This document shows positions 27,704 through 36,348 of a stretch of DNA of 64,000 bases, piece after piece. Made by a program: the position numbers and the translations under genes. The notes below the pieces were generated by a model. The model was given only the letters and a program-made list of their open reading frames with translations. It ran no database searches and was not told where the DNA came from. The DNA comes from an uncultured Flavobacteriales bacterium (GTDB taxonomy: Bacteria; Bacteroidota; Bacteroidia; Flavobacteriales_D; Crocinitomicaceae), in contig CAJAII010000077.1 of NCBI GenBank assembly GCA_903939755.1, positions 186,001 to 250,000 of the forward strand. The letters are read 5' to 3'. The stretch's first letter is position 1; each line of letters starts with the position of its first letter.

Positions 27704-28174
27704 ATGCCTAGCCATTCCGCCTTATTCTTGTCGGAAAAAACCAAACTGGAACGTTTTTGTGCCTATGAAGACCGTTGTGTCTTTCAAATACGAAAAAAAC
27801 TACTTACGTCATTACTCCCTGAGGCAGAAAAAGAAATGCTAATTACCACTCTTATTAACGATCGGTTTTTAGATGACTTTCGTTTTGCCTGTTCCTATGT
27901 TAGTGGCAAATCACGCATTAAGAAATGGGGTGCGCATAAAATTTATCGTGGCTTGAAATCTTATCAAATTAAACCGGACCAGATTTCTTTGGCCATGAAA
28001 GAAATTGCTTTAGATGATTATATGAATACCCTCAAAGAATTAATTGAGCGAAAAAAAGTGTTGTTATCAGACACCCAGGATCCCTATAAAAAGAAAGTGA
28101 AAATAATACGTTATCTAACCGGGAAAGGCTACTCCTTAACAGATATTTATCGGTCTGGTATTGAGGAAGATTAG
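27704..28174 (+). CDS. recX: RecX family regulatory protein
   Basis: 156 aa of three-helix repeats typical of RecX: NDRFLDDFRFACSYVSGKSRIKKWG (about residues 47-72) is the clearest, matching the family's D-D-x-x-F/Y-A-x-x-x-V pattern. RecX modulates RecA filament growth. No recA lies nearby. It starts 1 nt after rng ends and its last 4 nt overlap the 3' end of lysS on the other strand. Confidence 0.85.
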   Translation: MPSHSALFLSEKTKLERFCAYEDRCVFQIRKKLLTSLLPEAEKEMLITTLINDRFLDDFRFACSYVSGKSRIKKWGAHKIYRGLKSYQIKPDQISLAMKEIALDDYMNTLKELIERKKVLLSDTQDPYKKKVKIIRYLTGKGYSLTDIYRSGIEED

Positions 28175-29877
28175 TCCACTCGAATTACTTCCACAACATC
28201 TCCCACTTTCTGTATTTTTAACCTTCCTATTTTAACGAGATTTTTAGTGGTTGCATCCCAAGCTTTGTTGCTCATTTCCACTTTCGCGCGTAAATCAACG
28301 ATATTAATGGGGCTCTCCTGCTCCAAAATAGCACAAACTTGTTTTTCAGATTCCGACAATTGCTCCTGATGAGACGAAGTTTCAACCCTCATTTGAGGAA
28401 AAAACAGCACCTCTTGAATGGAAGGGTTATTCGTAAGCAACATCACAAATCTATCAATTCCAATACCCATACCAGAGGTTGGAGGCATTCCGTACTCTAA
28501 AGCCCTTAGAAAGTCTTGGTCAATAAACATGGCTTCGTCGTCTCCTTTTTCAGAAAGGGTCATTTGCTCTTCGAATCGCCCACGTTGGTCAATCGGGTCA
28601 TTTAATTCAGAATACGCGTTTGCGATCTCTTTTCCGTTGATCATTAATTCGAATCGCTCCGTTAGTTCTGGATTATCTCTGTGTTTTTTACACAGCGGTG
28701 ACATTTCAATTGGATAATCAGTAATAAAGACAGGTTGTATATAATTCGCCTCACATTTTTCTCCGAACAACTCATCAATTAACTTACCTTTTCCCATTGA
28801 ATTGTCCGTGCTAATTCCATTTTTTGCACATGCTTCTCGCAATTCGTCTTCATTTTTTCCATAGATATCAAAGCCTGTAAACTCAATGATTGCATCGCGC
28901 ATTGTAATTCTCTTAAAAGGGGCTTTAAGTGATATTTTATTTTGCCCGACCATAATTTCTGTGGTACCACAAACATCTAACGCAACACGCTCAATCATCC
29001 TTTCGGTAAAGTCCATCATCCAGTTATAGTCTTTGTAGGCCACATAAATTTCTAACATGGTAAATTCCGTATTGTGAGTCCTGTCTAAGCCCTCATTTCG
29101 AAAATCTTTCGCGAACTCAAAAACACCATCGAATCCTCCCACAATAAGTCTTTTCAAATAGAGTTCGTTAGCAATTCGCAAATAAAGCGGCATGTCTAAA
29201 GCATTGTGATGCGTAATAAATGGACGTGCGGCAGCACCTCCAGGAATTGGTTGAAGTATTGGGGTTTCCACCTCCAAATAATTGAATTCCTCAAAAAACC
29301 GACGCATAGACGTGATGGCCTTTGACCTTTTAATAAACGTTTCTTTTACATGCGGATTTACTAATAAATCAACATAACGTTGGCGATATCTAAGTTCTGG
29401 ATCTGTAAATGCATCGTGTAATCTTCCCTCTGCATCCGTTTTTGGAAATGGAAGTGGTTTTAGGGATTTGCTTAAAAGAACCAATTCTTTTACGTGTACA
29501 CTTTCTTCGCCAACCTGCGTGGTAAACAACACCCCTTTAACGCCTATAATGTCGCCTAAATCTAAATATCGCTTAAACAAATCATTGTAAAGTGATTTGT
29601 CTTCATTTGGACACAATTCGTCTCTATTGATATACAACTGTATTCTACCACTAGCGTCTTGGAGTTCAACAAAGGATGCTTTTCCCATAATTCGCTGGCT
29701 CATCATTCTTCCAGCCAAGCAAACCGTCTTACCCTCCTCAAAGTTTTCCTTAATTTCAGACGCGTAAATAGAAATCGGGTACGTGTCTGCTGGAAAAGGA
29801 TTGATCCCCATTTCAATGATTTTCGTTAGCGATTCCCGTCGTTGTAATTCTTGTTCGGAAAGATGTTGATTACTCAT
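28171..29877 (-). CDS. lysS: Lysine--tRNA ligase (class II)
   Basis: 568 aa. The N-terminal OB-fold binds the anticodon (VCLAGRMMSQRIMGKASFVELQDASG, about residues 52-80). Class II motif 2 is FRNEGLDRTHNTEFTMLE and motif 3 is GMGIGIDRFVMLLTN. The canonical enzyme ends after VLFFPQMR; here about 65 more residues follow (EQLSESEKQVCAILEQ onward), resembling a small winged-helix, as in other Bacteroidota LysRS. It is 24 nt downstream of mgtE and probably co-transcribed with it. Confidence 0.95.
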   Translation of the reverse strand: MSNQHLSEQELQRRESLTKIIEMGINPFPADTYPISIYASEIKENFEEGKTVCLAGRMMSQRIMGKASFVELQDASGRIQLYINRDELCPNEDKSLYNDLFKRYLDLGDIIGVKGVLFTTQVGEESVHVKELVLLSKSLKPLPFPKTDAEGRLHDAFTDPELRYRQRYVDLLVNPHVKETFIKRSKAITSMRRFFEEFNYLEVETPILQPIPGGAAARPFITHHNALDMPLYLRIANELYLKRLIVGGFDGVFEFAKDFRNEGLDRTHNTEFTMLEIYVAYKDYNWMMDFTERMIERVALDVCGTTEIMVGQNKISLKAPFKRITMRDAIIEFTGFDIYGKNEDELREACAKNGISTDNSMGKGKLIDELFGEKCEANYIQPVFITDYPIEMSPLCKKHRDNPELTERFELMINGKEIANAYSELNDPIDQRGRFEEQMTLSEKGDDEAMFIDQDFLRALEYGMPPTSGMGIGIDRFVMLLTNNPSIQEVLFFPQMRVETSSHQEQLSESEKQVCAILEQESPINIVDLRAKVEMSNKAWDATTKNLVKIGRLKIQKVGDVVEVIRVD

Positions 29878-29901: not shown

Positions 29902-31251
29902 TTAAATCCCATAAATTAGCATGCCAATTGTAAAGTAAATAAATAACCCAACTACATCATTTAAGGTGGTAATAAATGGTCCTGTGGCAATAGCAGGATC
30001 GATTTTATATTTGTGTAAAACCAGCGGGATAATTGTCCCGATTGTGGAAGCGAATACTATTACGGTTAATAAAGAAATACTTACCACCATTCCTAGTTTT
30101 GTATCTCCAAACACAAGGGCGAAACAGAACAAAATTGTAGAAAGCAATAAACCATTCAATAAACCGATTAGCGCTTCTTTTAAAATTCTCCTAACAGCGC
30201 CGTCTAATAGTTTATTCCCTCGTGCTAAAGACTGAACAACAATCGCTGATGCTTGCACGCCAACATTTCCTCCCATCGCTGTAATTAGGGGAATAAAAAA
30301 GGCTAGCACTGGCATTTTTGTTATTCCCCCTTCGAATCCAGAAAGCACCTGTGCTCCAAATCCCCCACCAATTAATCCGATTATTAGCCACGGCAAACGT
30401 CGCCCAGAAACCTTCCAAATACTTGCGTCTTTTTCCAGCGGCTCGGAGATACCTGTTGCAAATTGGAAATCGCTATCCGCCCCCTCTTTTATATAATCTA
30501 CCACATCATCTAGCGTAATCCTTCCCACGAGTTTTTTTTGATAATCGACAACGGGGACAGAAACCAAGTCATACTTTTCCATGACATCTGCTACTTCTTC
30601 AACCGTATCACTCGTTTTTACGAAAATTATATTTTTAAATTGATAGAGGTCTTCAATGGTAGCAGTTGGGCCGGCAAACAATATTCTTTTTAAAGACAGC
30701 ACGCCAACCAATTGATCCGTGGCATTAACTACAAAGATGTTATATACTTTTTCAACATCCTCCGCTTGTTTTCTTAGTTCAATGAGTGCTCTTTTAACCG
30801 GCCAATCAACCTGTGCTTGAAAAAACTCTTTCTGCATTAAACCACCCGCCGTGTTTTCGTCATAATTCAACAAATCAACGATGTCTTCCGCGGCCTCATC
30901 CTCCATCTGAGAGATAACCTCTTGAATTTGGGCTTTTGACAATTCCCCAAGGATGTCAGCGGCGTCATCTGAATCAAGCTTTTCTAATTGACCGGCTATT
31001 TCTTTGGTTGATAATGATGCGATAAAACGGTCTCTGACCTCTTCGTCAAGCTCCATTAAAATATCCGCCTGCGTATCTTCGTCAACTAAAAAATAAATGT
31101 ATTTAGCCTCATCATTCGATAGTTTATCTATAATTTCGGCAACATCGGCATAGTGTAATTCCAGGACATTACTCGTTAACCAAGACTCATCTTTTGTTTC
31201 GATCTTATTGCGAACAATTCCCAGAAAGTCTTTTGTTAGTTCAAAGCGCAT
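29902..31251 (-). CDS. mgtE: MgtE family magnesium transporter
   Basis: 449 aa. Cytosolic N domain (about 1-130), CBS pair (about 135-255, with DLVSVPVVDYQKKLVGRITLDDVVDYI) that senses Mg2+, a connecting helix, then five transmembrane helices. The pore motifs FFIPLITAMGGNVGVQASAI and DPAIATGPFITTLNDVVGL are present, the second holding the conserved Mg2+-selective Asp. It imports Mg2+ across the inner membrane. A TACCTTTG element lies 18 nt before the ATG. Confidence 0.95.
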   Translation of the reverse strand: MRFELTKDFLGIVRNKIETKDESWLTSNVLELHYADVAEIIDKLSNDEAKYIYFLVDEDTQADILMELDEEVRDRFIASLSTKEIAGQLEKLDSDDAADILGELSKAQIQEVISQMEDEAAEDIVDLLNYDENTAGGLMQKEFFQAQVDWPVKRALIELRKQAEDVEKVYNIFVVNATDQLVGVLSLKRILFAGPTATIEDLYQFKNIIFVKTSDTVEEVADVMEKYDLVSVPVVDYQKKLVGRITLDDVVDYIKEGADSDFQFATGISEPLEKDASIWKVSGRRLPWLIIGLIGGGFGAQVLSGFEGGITKMPVLAFFIPLITAMGGNVGVQASAIVVQSLARGNKLLDGAVRRILKEALIGLLNGLLLSTILFCFALVFGDTKLGMVVSISLLTVIVFASTIGTIIPLVLHKYKIDPAIATGPFITTLNDVVGLFIYFTIGMLIYGI

Positions 31252-31319: not shown

Positions 31320-32327
31320 TTAATCATGACAAAGCCCTTGCACAATATGAAATAGATCATGTGCCTCTTTTATCTTTTTTATTAAAACAGCATCCTTCGC
31401 CTCTTTTTCCACCAACTCATTGACTTCCTCACATTTGTTTTCTAAATTTTGAAGTCCCTCAAGAATTAATTTCGAGTCAAGCGACTTCGGTGGACGAGAT
31501 TCTTTTAGTAAAATTGCCTTGGCCAATAATTCGCCGCTTCTATTTCTGAGAGGGATTAAATCTCCGCTTTCTGATGGGTGAAATGTTTGTGCCATTGTCC
31601 GATGAAAATCCTTCATGGCAGGCCAATTGTCTTTCTCTATTTCTAGTAACAAAGAATCATTGATGGCTGAAGCATATTTTTTTGAAACCACCCCCCAGTC
31701 AATTAACGACCAAGCCGCAGAGAGATAATCCATTCGTTTATTTTGATAATTTAAATAATAAGCGTGTTCCCAAACATCAATCGCAATAATAGGAATTCCC
31801 CTGTCTTTTGTAACATCCATAATTGGATTGTCTTGATTTGGAGTACTTGTCACCATTAGTTTTTTTTCTGGCGAAACAATTAACCAAGCCCACCCAGAAC
31901 CAAATCTTGCTATAGCCGCAGCGGAGATTGCTTTTTTTAGGCTGTCCATCGAACCGAAGTCCCTGTTAATCGCAGCGGATAATTCATCTGAGATTAACCC
32001 CTGAGATGCGGGAGGCGCCATGATTTCCCAAAACATGGTGTGATTATAATGTCCACCTGCATTGTTTCTTACTGCGTCAGAACGAAAACTAACGTAAAAC
32101 ATTAAATCGAGAAGAGACTGGCCCTCCATCTTCGTTCCTTTAACCGCCGTGTTAAGATTATTCACATAGGCTTGATGGTGTTTTTTGTGGTGAATCTCCA
32201 TCGTTAAAACATCTATTTGAGGAGCGTAATCTCCATAAGCATAAGGTAAATTTGGCAGGGAAAATGATTGAGAAAAACTTGTGTTTATCATCAAAAGTAA
32301 AATCAAACAAAATAGAGTTGTTTTCAT
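31320..32327 (-). CDS. Exported Fe/Mn superoxide dismutase with C-terminal extension
   Basis: 335 aa, against about 200 for the usual enzyme. A signal peptide (LFCLILLLMINTSFSQ) predicts export. Residues about 20-205 form the Fe/Mn-SOD with ligands in MEIHHKKHHQAYV, HYNHTMFWE and IAIDVWEHAYYLNYQ. Then about 125 extra helical residues follow, rich in histidines (FHRTMAQTFHP and AHDLFHIVQGLCH) and without similarity to SODs. This part may bind metal or heme, or belong to an uncharacterised four-helix family. Metal choice (Fe or Mn) cannot be settled by eye. Confidence 0.87.
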   Translation of the reverse strand: MKTTLFCLILLLMINTSFSQSFSLPNLPYAYGDYAPQIDVLTMEIHHKKHHQAYVNNLNTAVKGTKMEGQSLLDLMFYVSFRSDAVRNNAGGHYNHTMFWEIMAPPASQGLISDELSAAINRDFGSMDSLKKAISAAAIARFGSGWAWLIVSPEKKLMVTSTPNQDNPIMDVTKDRGIPIIAIDVWEHAYYLNYQNKRMDYLSAAWSLIDWGVVSKKYASAINDSLLLEIEKDNWPAMKDFHRTMAQTFHPSESGDLIPLRNRSGELLAKAILLKESRPPKSLDSKLILEGLQNLENKCEEVNELVEKEAKDAVLIKKIKEAHDLFHIVQGLCHD

Positions 32328-32453: not shown

Positions 32454-35400
32454 ATGCCTGAGAAGTATAAAGAATATACTGGATTAAATTTGCCAATAAT
32501 TACTACTGAAATCTTAAAAGATTGGGATGATAAGTTAATCTTTGAATTATCCGTTTCTAGGCGAGAAGAATGTCCTCCTTTTGTTTTTTATGAGGGGCCT
32601 CCCTCAGCGAATGGTTTGCCTGGCATCCATCATGTTATGGGAAGGGCAATAAAAGATATTTTTTGCAGATACAAAACCCTTAAAGGATTCCAAGTAAAAA
32701 GAAAAGCGGGTTGGGATACACACGGCCTTCCGGTTGAACTTGGTGTTGAAAAAGAACTTGGAATAACAAAAGAAGATATTGGCAAGACAATTAGCGTGGA
32801 TGATTATAACCAAGCTTGTAAAAATGCCGTGATGCGTTATACCGATATTTGGAATGACCTAACCACTAAAATGGGCTATTGGGTGGACAAAGAAAACCCA
32901 TATGTTACCTACGAGACAAAATACATGGAATCGGTTTGGTGGCTCATCGGCGAACTATACAGGAAAGATTTAATGTACAAAGGCTATACAATACAGCCGT
33001 ATTCCCCCAAAGCAGGAACGGGACTTTCTTCGCACGAATTAAATCAGCCGGGTTGTTACAAAGATGTTAAAGACACCTCTGTTGTAGCTATGTTCAGGGT
33101 AAGGAGAGATCAGAAAAATGTGTTTGACTCATATGTAAAGGCGAATGAAGAGTTGTTTATGTTAGCCTGGACAACTACACCTTGGACATTACCCTCTAAT
33201 ACGGCACTTGCTGTTGGTGAGAACATCGCGTATTGCCTTGTTTCATCTTTCAATCAGTATACATTTAAACCCATTTTAGTTGTACTTGCTAAAAATTTGG
33301 TTCCTTATCAGTTCGGGAAGGGGTTTCACCCTGTTGAAGACCATAACGAATTTGCTACCTATACACCTGGAGACAAATCAATCCCTTATTTAATTCTAGG
33401 AAATTGTTTGGGGAAGGAATTGGTTGGTATTCAATACGAACAACTTTTGCCTTATTGTTTGCCTGCTGAAAATCCAGGAAATGCTTTTCAGGTAATCGCG
33501 GGTGATTTTGTTACTACAGAAGATGGTACAGGCGTTGTGCATTTAGCACCCACCTTTGGAGCCGACGATGCTCGAGTCGCAGCAGCCGCTAAAATACCCG
33601 CGATGCTCGTACGTGATGAACACCAAAACCTGGTTCCATTAGTAGATTTACGTGGGAAATTTCGTCCAGAAGTCACTGATTTTGCTGGAATGTATGTGAA
33701 AAATGAGTTTTACGAAGAAGCAGAAATGCCGGAACGCTCTGTTGACGTTCAAATTGCGATTAAGTTAAAAGAAGAAAACAAGGCCTTTAAAGTTGAAAAG
33801 TATGAACATAGTTATCCGCATTGTTGGCGGACAGACAAGCCAATTCTATATTATCCATTAGACTCATGGTTTATTCGAGTTAGTGGACAAAAAGAGAAAA
33901 TGGTTGCTTTAAATAATACCATCAACTGGAACCCAACAAGTACGGGACAAGGTCGCTTCGGAAAATGGTTGGAAAATGCAAATGATTGGAACCTGTCTCG
34001 TTCGCGATACTGGGGGATTCCTATCCCAATATGGGCTACGGAGGACGGTAAAGAAAGGCGCTGCATCTCTTCTCTTGCTGAATTAAAAAAGGCTTGTCAA
34101 GATGCCGTAGAGGCTGGTGTAATGGAAAGTAATCCCCTGGAATCTTTCCGGGAAAATGATATGTCTAAGGAAAATTATTCGCAAATAGATATACACAAGC
34201 ACCACGTCGATAAAATAATTTTAGTTTCGAAGGATGGTGCAATCATGAAACGCGAGTTAGACCTTATTGATGTTTGGTTCGATTCGGGTGCCATGCCTTA
34301 TGCACAATGGCATTACCCTTTTGAAAATAAATCATTCATTGATGATAACAAGGCTTTTCCCGCTGATTTTATCGCGGAGGGTGTAGACCAAACCCGTGGG
34401 TGGTTTTATACCTTACATGCCATATCAACGCTTGTATTTGGAAGCGTGGCCTACAAAAATGTTTTGTCTAATGGACTTGTTTTAGATAAAAATGGACTTA
34501 AAATGTCTAAGCGACTTGGTAACGGCATTGATCCATTTGCTACGCTAGAAAAATATGGTCCCGACGCAACGAGGTGGTATATGATTACCAATGCACAGCC
34601 TTGGGATAATCTTAAATTTGATGTGGATGGGATTGTTGAAGTTCAACGTAAGTTTTTCGGAACACTTTATAATACCTATTCCTTTTTTGCCTTATACGCT
34701 AATATTGATGGCTTCCGATACGAAGAAAAAGAAATTGAACTGGAGAAACGTCCAGAAATAGATCGGTGGATTATCTCTAAACTCAATAGTTTAATTTTAG
34801 AGGTGGATGCCGCTTTCGATTCTTATGAGCCTACAAAGGCAGGGCGATTAATACAAGACTTTGTGTCTGACCAACTGTCTAATTGGTATGTAAGGCTATG
34901 CAGGAGACGCTTTTGGAAAAGTGATGATGCAATTGACAAGCTTTCCGCTTATCAAACGCTCTACACTTGCCTAGAGCAAATAGCCATCCTTGCATCCCCA
35001 ATTGCGCCATTTTTTATGGATCGCTTATTTATGGATTTAACTAACATCACTCATAAAAAGGATGTTAGTTCAGTCCATCTCTGTGATTTCCCAATAATTA
35101 ATAAAAAGGAAATTGATTCGGCACTTGAAGGCAGGATGTTAATTGCTCAGCGACTCTCGTCCTTGGTACTCGGACTACGAAAAAAAGAAAAAATAAGAGT
35201 AAGACAGCCCTTAGCTCGGATTTTGGTGCCCGCATTAAGCGATGAATTTTCACAAAGTGTTACGGAAATCCAAGATTTGATTCTGTCAGAAGTAAATGTA
35301 AAATCCCTGTCCTTAATAAAGGATGACGGAACAATGTTAGTTAAAAACATCCGCCCTAATTTTAAATCCATTGGGAAGAAGTTTGGCGCACAGATGAAGG

Positions 35401-35870
35401 GTATTTCGGCAGAAATTGCTGCTTTTAATCAAGATCAAATTCGGCAAGTTGAGCAAGATAAATTGTGGAAAAAAGAAATTGACGGTGTGCTTGTTACCTT
35501 AGAATTAGAGGACTTTGAAATAACCGCGAAAGACATTCCGGGACTTTTGGTTGCTAGCGATGGGGAATTAACCGTTGCATTGGACATTACCATTACAGAA
35601 GAACTTCACGAAGAGGGGGTTGCAAGAGAATTCGTAAATCGAATCCAATCATTAAGAAAAGAGAAGGACTTTGATGTAACCGATAGAATTAGTGTTCAAT
35701 ATTCCTCCAGTGAATTCATCGAAGCGGCGCTGGAAAAGAACAAGGTTTATATTTGTGCGGAGGTGCTTGCAGATGCATTAACGTCCGTAAAAATGTTTTC
35801 TAATTCTACTAAAATTGATGTTGAAAATGAGGGGGATACAGAAATTTATCTAACGTTAATTTCAAAATAA
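32454..35870 (+). CDS. ileS: Isoleucine--tRNA ligase, type 2, with altered HIGH motif (GIHH)
   Basis: 1138 aa; start at ATG 32454 (MPEKYKEYTGL), since the upstream frame contains the promoter-like sequence TATTTTTG. Domains: Rossmann fold with PPSANGLPGIHH (residues 57-60 in place of HxGH), inserted editing domain with TTPWTLPSNTA and GTGVVHLAPTFGADD, the KMSKR loop (residues 683-687, KMSKRLGN), anticodon-binding helices and a long C-terminal part. Length and the GLP-x-x-H-H type signature fit the IleRS2 (eukaryote-like) class. The editing site looks intact. It is followed 10 nt later by a biotin-carrier gene. Confidence 0.95.
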   Translation: MPEKYKEYTGLNLPIITTEILKDWDDKLIFELSVSRREECPPFVFYEGPPSANGLPGIHHVMGRAIKDIFCRYKTLKGFQVKRKAGWDTHGLPVELGVEKELGITKEDIGKTISVDDYNQACKNAVMRYTDIWNDLTTKMGYWVDKENPYVTYETKYMESVWWLIGELYRKDLMYKGYTIQPYSPKAGTGLSSHELNQPGCYKDVKDTSVVAMFRVRRDQKNVFDSYVKANEELFMLAWTTTPWTLPSNTALAVGENIAYCLVSSFNQYTFKPILVVLAKNLVPYQFGKGFHPVEDHNEFATYTPGDKSIPYLILGNCLGKELVGIQYEQLLPYCLPAENPGNAFQVIAGDFVTTEDGTGVVHLAPTFGADDARVAAAAKIPAMLVRDEHQNLVPLVDLRGKFRPEVTDFAGMYVKNEFYEEAEMPERSVDVQIAIKLKEENKAFKVEKYEHSYPHCWRTDKPILYYPLDSWFIRVSGQKEKMVALNNTINWNPTSTGQGRFGKWLENANDWNLSRSRYWGIPIPIWATEDGKERRCISSLAELKKACQDAVEAGVMESNPLESFRENDMSKENYSQIDIHKHHVDKIILVSKDGAIMKRELDLIDVWFDSGAMPYAQWHYPFENKSFIDDNKAFPADFIAEGVDQTRGWFYTLHAISTLVFGSVAYKNVLSNGLVLDKNGLKMSKRLGNGIDPFATLEKYGPDATRWYMITNAQPWDNLKFDVDGIVEVQRKFFGTLYNTYSFFALYANIDGFRYEEKEIELEKRPEIDRWIISKLNSLILEVDAAFDSYEPTKAGRLIQDFVSDQLSNWYVRLCRRRFWKSDDAIDKLSAYQTLYTCLEQIAILASPIAPFFMDRLFMDLTNITHKKDVSSVHLCDFPIINKKEIDSALEGRMLIAQRLSSLVLGLRKKEKIRVRQPLARILVPALSDEFSQSVTEIQDLILSEVNVKSLSLIKDDGTMLVKNIRPNFKSIGKKFGAQMKGISAEIAAFNQDQIRQVEQDKLWKKEIDGVLVTLELEDFEITAKDIPGLLVASDGELTVALDITITEELHEEGVAREFVNRIQSLRKEKDFDVTDRISVQYSSSEFIEAALEKNKVYICAEVLADALTSVKMFSNSTKIDVENEGDTEIYLTLISK

Positions 35871-35880
35871 AAAAGGATTT

Positions 35881-36348
35881 ATGAAAAATAACAATTGGTA
35901 TTTTGACAATGAACCTATACAAAAGACAGATGGCGCCTTCGTGAAATGGCACAATCACAAGTTTTTTGATTTGGTTTTTCAAGGAAAGGTTTTCCATGGA
36001 GAAATTCAAGAAGAAAAATCAGAAGAGCGAAAGCTCGTAATAAAAATAAACCACCGTGTTTTTCATGTTCGTAAAAAGCATGAGTTAGATGATTTAATTT
36101 CCGCGTTGGGACTTGATAAGCCTAAAATAAAAAAAATAAAAGAATTTAAATCTCCCATGCCCGGACGAGTTATATCTATTAGCGTTAAAGAAGGACAAGA
36201 GGTTATAGGGGGAGATTCACTCTTATCTTTGGAGGCGATGAAAATGGAAAATGCACTTAAAGCCGACGGAACGGGAATCGTTAAACACATCTTGGTTTCA
36301 GAAGGTGCGATTGTAGAAAAAGGAAGTGTATTAATCGAATTTGAATGA
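35881..36348 (+). CDS. Biotin carboxyl carrier domain protein (acyl-CoA carboxylase type)
   Basis: 155 aa. The C-terminal 70 residues are a biotinyl domain: PMPGRVISISVKEGQEV and the biotinylation motif LEAMKMENAL (Lys of EAMKM). The N-terminal 80 residues have no Pro/Ala linker, which sets it apart from accB in this window. EAMKMEN carriers usually serve propionyl-, methylcrotonyl- or related acyl-CoA carboxylases, or oxaloacetate decarboxylase. No partner carboxylase is adjacent. It lies 10 nt after ileS, so both are probably on one transcript. Confidence 0.88.
   Translation: MKNNNWYFDNEPIQKTDGAFVKWHNHKFFDLVFQGKVFHGEIQEEKSEERKLVIKINHRVFHVRKKHELDDLISALGLDKPKIKKIKEFKSPMPGRVISISVKEGQEVIGGDSLLSLEAMKMENALKADGTGIVKHILVSEGAIVEKGSVLIEFE

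Follow-up and report, generated by a model that had tools for sequence, protein, structure and literature searches.

The window analysed here is the whole stretch of 64,000 nucleotides from an uncultured Flavobacteriales bacterium, and the part that concerns us is centred on a rightwards-transcribed isoleucyl-tRNA synthetase (IleRS) gene. The genes around it, and the features within it, are as follows.

28171-29877, minus strand: lysyl-tRNA synthetase with a tRNA-synt_2 domain (Pfam)
31320-32327, minus strand: Fe/Mn superoxide dismutase (Pfam)
32454..35870, plus strand: ileS, isoleucyl-tRNA synthetase type 2, 1138 amino acids from ATG 32454 (TIGR00392, Pfam, open ORF)
32622..32633, plus strand: GIHH at residues 57-60, an altered form of the class I signature HxGH (codons, ungapped alignments)
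33171..33194, plus strand: TTTPWTLP, threonine-rich editing-domain motif, residues 240-247 (sequence; aligns with E. coli TTTPWTLP)
33525..33569, plus strand: GTGVVHLAPTFGADD, second editing-domain motif, residues 358-372 (sequence; aligns with E. coli GTGAVHTAPGHGPDD)
34500..34514, plus strand: KMSKR, second class I signature, residues 683-687 (sequence)
35271..35831, plus strand: C-terminal DUF5915 domain, residues 940-1126 (PF19302, 181 bits), downstream of Anticodon_1
35881-36348, plus strand: small protein with a biotinyl domain, immediately after ileS across a 10-base gap

The ileS open reading frame ends with a stop at 35870 and has two possible starts, TTG 32394 (1158 amino acids) and ATG 32454 (1138 amino acids). 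The ATG, which is residue 21 of the longer version, is favoured because the full-length matches in relatives start mostly at residues 15–24 of that version. The complete protein product matches the TIGR00392 ileS model with 952 bits, passing the curated cut-off of 621, and contains the Pfam domains tRNA-synt_1, Anticodon_1 and DUF5915. Scans for promoter-like and terminator-like elements flanking the gene gave counts not above those of shuffled controls, and there was no Rfam match between positions 31000 and 37000. As for the neighbouring genes, the biotinyl-domain protein resembles the C-terminal carrier part of pyruvate carboxylase subunit B, the superoxide dismutase has a probable N-terminal signal peptide, as judged by eye, and about 115 additional C-terminal residues without a Pfam match, and the lysyl-tRNA synthetase has about 70 C-terminal residues past its tRNA-synt_2 domain that likewise have no Pfam match.

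The altered signature is encoded by GGC (G) at 32622, ATC (I) at 32625, CAT (H) at 32628 and CAT (H) at 32631, numbered as residues 57–60 from ATG 32454, and the frame that contains it is complete, in agreement with the sequence-only reading, which had reported GIHH in an otherwise complete IleRS; the range it gave, 32619–32633, holds these four codons and also spans the preceding proline codon, CCT at 32619. The same reading proposed that positions 1 and 3 of the class I signature have changed places, and several observations bear this out. First, alignments with the E. coli IleRS1 set each residue of GIHH against its counterpart in HIGH, free of gaps. Secondly, a phmmer search of the Protein Data Bank places ANGLPGVHH of its top chain, 8c8w_A from Priestia megaterium IleRS2, ungapped beneath ANGLPGIHH, and the corresponding columns of the second and third chains read ANGLPHVGH. 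Thirdly, a search of the whole IleRS protein found no HxGH at any other place, so that this ground for refuting the exchange falls away. The segment thus has the G/AXHH pattern, its first residue being G and its last two H, in register with GVHH, HVGH and HIGH, and the ungapped alignments show that positions 1 and 3 are truly exchanged. The KMSKR signature and the editing motifs had been described as intact, and they are: KMSKR is at residues 683–687, and TTTPWTLP and GTGVVHLAPTFGADD, which we take to be editing motifs, begin at residues 240 and 358. Among 112 aligned rows (three of them the own gene) the second signature reads KMSKR in 107 and KMSKS in five.

The C-terminal DUF5915 domain is presumably a mark of type 2 IleRS proteins, and the comparison with solved structures points in the same direction. 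Four chains of P. megaterium IleRS2 (8c8u, 8c8v, 8c8w and 8c9d) are the closest solved sequences, at 758–771 bits, whereas 8c9e reaches 306 bits and 8c9f 315 bits (phmmer, Protein Data Bank). According to the data section of Brkic et al. 2023 (PMC10485003), 8C8W is a GVHH mutant of P. megaterium IleRS2, 8C8U and 8C8V are the wild-type HVGH enzyme, and 8c9e and 8c9f are P. megaterium IleRS1. The window enzyme shares both register and flanks with these IleRS2 chains (SANGLPGIHH, compared to TANGLPGVHH in 8c8w), although the natural P. megaterium enzyme has the canonical HVGH and 1032 residues, compared to GIHH and 1138 residues. With E. coli IleRS1 the class I fold is common and the KMSK and editing motifs align, but the E. 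coli enzyme has the canonical HIGH and a different C-terminus, and shares 26% identity over 854 columns. Judged by sequence, the window enzyme is an IleRS2, being nearer to the solved IleRS2 than to IleRS1 and having a C-terminus unlike that of IleRS1.

The genome to which the window belongs (2.9 Mb in 78 contigs, 99.79% complete) yielded 11 candidates with the ileS model, all of which were scored. Seven match at E ≤ 0.001 and one of these, the window gene, is over the cut-off; the earlier suggestion that this might be the only IleRS therefore agrees with the search for a second ileS. The remaining six matches fall in four frames, which curated models identify as ValRS, LeuRS, MetRS and CysRS, with the signatures HMGH, HVGH, HLGH and HLGN, respectively, and the exchanged signature is present in none of these four. 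HLGN-like forms such as that of the CysRS (L007:580-2145, C77) are known in cysteinyl-tRNA synthetases. As the sole IleRS found in the assembled genome, the window gene would set the sensitivity of the cell to mupirocin.

The distribution of the motif was surveyed at two levels. A search of 60 genomes of relatives, the own genome included, gave an IleRS match in 54, with the best piece in the other 53 being 60–92% identical to the window enzyme. The signature is readable in 51 of the 60 (own genome included) and is GIHH in every one; in the other nine (G008, G010, G023, G024, G031, G032, G035, G047 and G059) there is either no IleRS match or a match without the motif. One of these nine, G008, is of the same genus and 94% complete and has no IleRS match, its only matches being as low in score as those of other synthetases; the absence is probably an assembly gap. 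When 31 loci (two of the own gene and 29 from relatives) are combined with 80 named records, the 111 rows comprise 92 with GIHH and 19 with GVHH. All 80 named records have GxHH, in a set that leans to close relatives because it holds the best 80 of 592 confirmed matches.

At the second level, 148 genomes were drawn evenly from the phylum, each at least 90% complete, and GxHH is present in all 148. The 146 loci L118–L263 comprise 105 with GIHH, 40 with GVHH and one with GMHH, the other two genomes being the own genome and G020. Together with 48 further relatives the phylum sample makes 196 distinct genomes, none of which has the canonical form. Two matches to the ileS model are found in 23 of the 148 genomes. 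In two of these (G114 and G160) they are one gene in two pieces, and in each of the other 21 the valS model identifies one ValRS over its cut-off and one weaker match in the IleRS frame, with no third match at E ≤ 1e-60, so that no second IleRS is apparent in these 21; five candidates were scored per genome in the phylum sample, which leaves room for an additional IleRS gene elsewhere in the phylum. We considered whether GIHH arose by chance or from a sequencing error and rejected both, because the G, H and H are identical in every IleRS read in the phylum survey.

Signatures of this kind have been described. Brkic et al. 2023 (PMC10485003) report that natural G/AXHH IleRS2 enzymes exist and that the motif is a cause of hyper-resistance to mupirocin, which corresponds to the link between GxHH IleRS2 and mupirocin resistance that the sequence-only reading had pointed to. 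The G/AXHH form is present in 86 IleRS2 among 379 IleRS sequences and in no IleRS1; GXHH is inferred to have arisen at least twice in IleRS2, and to have reverted naturally in Deinococcus-Thermus (PMC10485003). The published G/AXHH IleRS2 enzymes are catalytically active; the natural ALHH enzyme of Deinococcus radiodurans has a mupirocin Ki of 6.6 mM, and making its motif canonical lowers the Ki 823-fold (PMC10485003). In IleRS2 the tip of helix alpha1, and hence the motif, is shifted such that a histidine is accommodated at the third position, where its nitrogen takes the place of that of the missing first histidine and where it clashes with mupirocin, raising the Ki, to millimolar in the natural example (PMC10485003). 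The IleRS2 proteins of Streptomyces griseus and D. radiodurans are, like the window enzyme, of type 2 with positions 1 and 3 exchanged, although the D. radiodurans signature is ALHH rather than GIHH. Table 1 of the same paper lists enzymes from Deinococcus, Thermus and Priestia, and its main text nowhere uses the word stem 'Bacteroid', so that we see no measured Bacteroidota enzyme in the part of PMC10485003 available to us; nor does its text there state that GXHH is fixed across a phylum, although its tree may well show this. In literature listings we found nothing direct on mupirocin insensitivity of Bacteroidota or Flavobacterium.

The window gene is thus very probably a housekeeping gene, encoding the type 2 IleRS, with the published non-canonical GXHH motif, of a bacterium of the Flavobacteriales (Bacteroidota) that resembles the Crocinitomicaceae, and we found nothing in the sequence that speaks against this. 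The motif is both lineage-wide and published, and the gene is a housekeeping orthologue rather than something special to the strain; nothing in GIHH is strain-specific, as the phylum sample shows GxHH throughout, and the motif appears to have been inherited from the ancestor of the phylum rather than to be a recent adaptation of the strain. The enzyme is predicted to be active, to charge tRNA-Ile, to edit, and to be hyper-resistant to mupirocin. A shifted helix alpha1 tip in the type 2 enzyme would let the third-position histidine fit; this histidine would supply a nitrogen in place of that of the absent first one, and its clash with mupirocin would raise the Ki. By analogy with the published enzymes, insensitivity to mupirocin at the level of the target is to be expected.

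A broader proposal is that GXHH has been fixed in the Bacteroidota IleRS since the ancestor of the phylum, with no surviving reversion, that the whole phylum is hyper-resistant to mupirocin at the target level, and that the motif is held by something other than present-day exposure to mupirocin; we consider the chances for and against this proposal to be evenly balanced. Coupled active-site residues are an example of what could hold GXHH in place. A related explanation is that the motif is kept by structural entrenchment or catalytic tuning, mupirocin resistance being a by-product without a present selective role in the lineage. The lack of a canonical form in 196 distinct genomes, most of which are presumably unlikely to meet mupirocin steadily, favours this. 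However, exchange of the motif in IleRS2 is tolerated, at a cost, and the Deinococcus-Thermus reversion is natural (PMC10485003), so entrenchment is not general, and we lean slightly against it. It is compatible with the housekeeping type 2 reading, as it concerns the cause of retention and not the identity of the enzyme.

A MupA/MupB-like mupirocin-resistance gene, gained recently, confined to the strain or acquired horizontally, is a very unlikely alternative. The window protein does match the MupA and MupB models, with 698 and 724 bits, respectively, although this would be expected of any IleRS2, and these scores are far under the cut-off of 1900 bits of each model, which speaks against an acquired gene of this kind. 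Unlike the related acquired enzymes, the window ileS is the single ileS found in its genome and has orthologues throughout the relatives, at the identities and with the uniform GIHH given above. That the protein is a dead or repurposed paralogue, in which loss of HxGH means loss of catalysis, is scarcely credible: mutation of the first histidine slows activation about 1000-fold in several class I enzymes (PMC10485003), but the published G/AXHH enzymes are active, the editing and KMSK motifs are retained, and the sole IleRS found in a genome that is 99.79% complete should need an active role, with no other over-cut-off IleRS to make this one a second copy or pseudo-enzyme.

Returning to the housekeeping type 2 IleRS with GXHH, the window gene alone matters little, being a standard gene with a published motif. 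The motif type is already known, and its apparent fixation across the phylum sample, without reversion, looks to be a small addition: throughout a sample of one phylum, only the rearranged form of the class I catalytic signature was encountered. Should the fixation hold, Bacteroidota would be insensitive to mupirocin at the target level, which bears on the use of mupirocin as a selective agent and on resistance-gene scans that flag Bacteroidota ileS genes, and GXHH could stay stable through the history of a phylum.

The named records, within the best 80 of 592 confirmed matches, are mostly Flavobacteriales by title, and the nearest is a Crocinitomicaceae metagenome-assembled genome (MAG) with an IleRS that is 92% identical (L038); on this basis we take the sampled phylum to be Bacteroidota. 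Two others are titled as MAGs of Chitinophaga pinensis (L042) and Chryseobacterium gleum (L043), and we note that their IleRS proteins, 69% and 68% identical, respectively, rank amid Crocinitomicaceae records; these titles may be misassigned.
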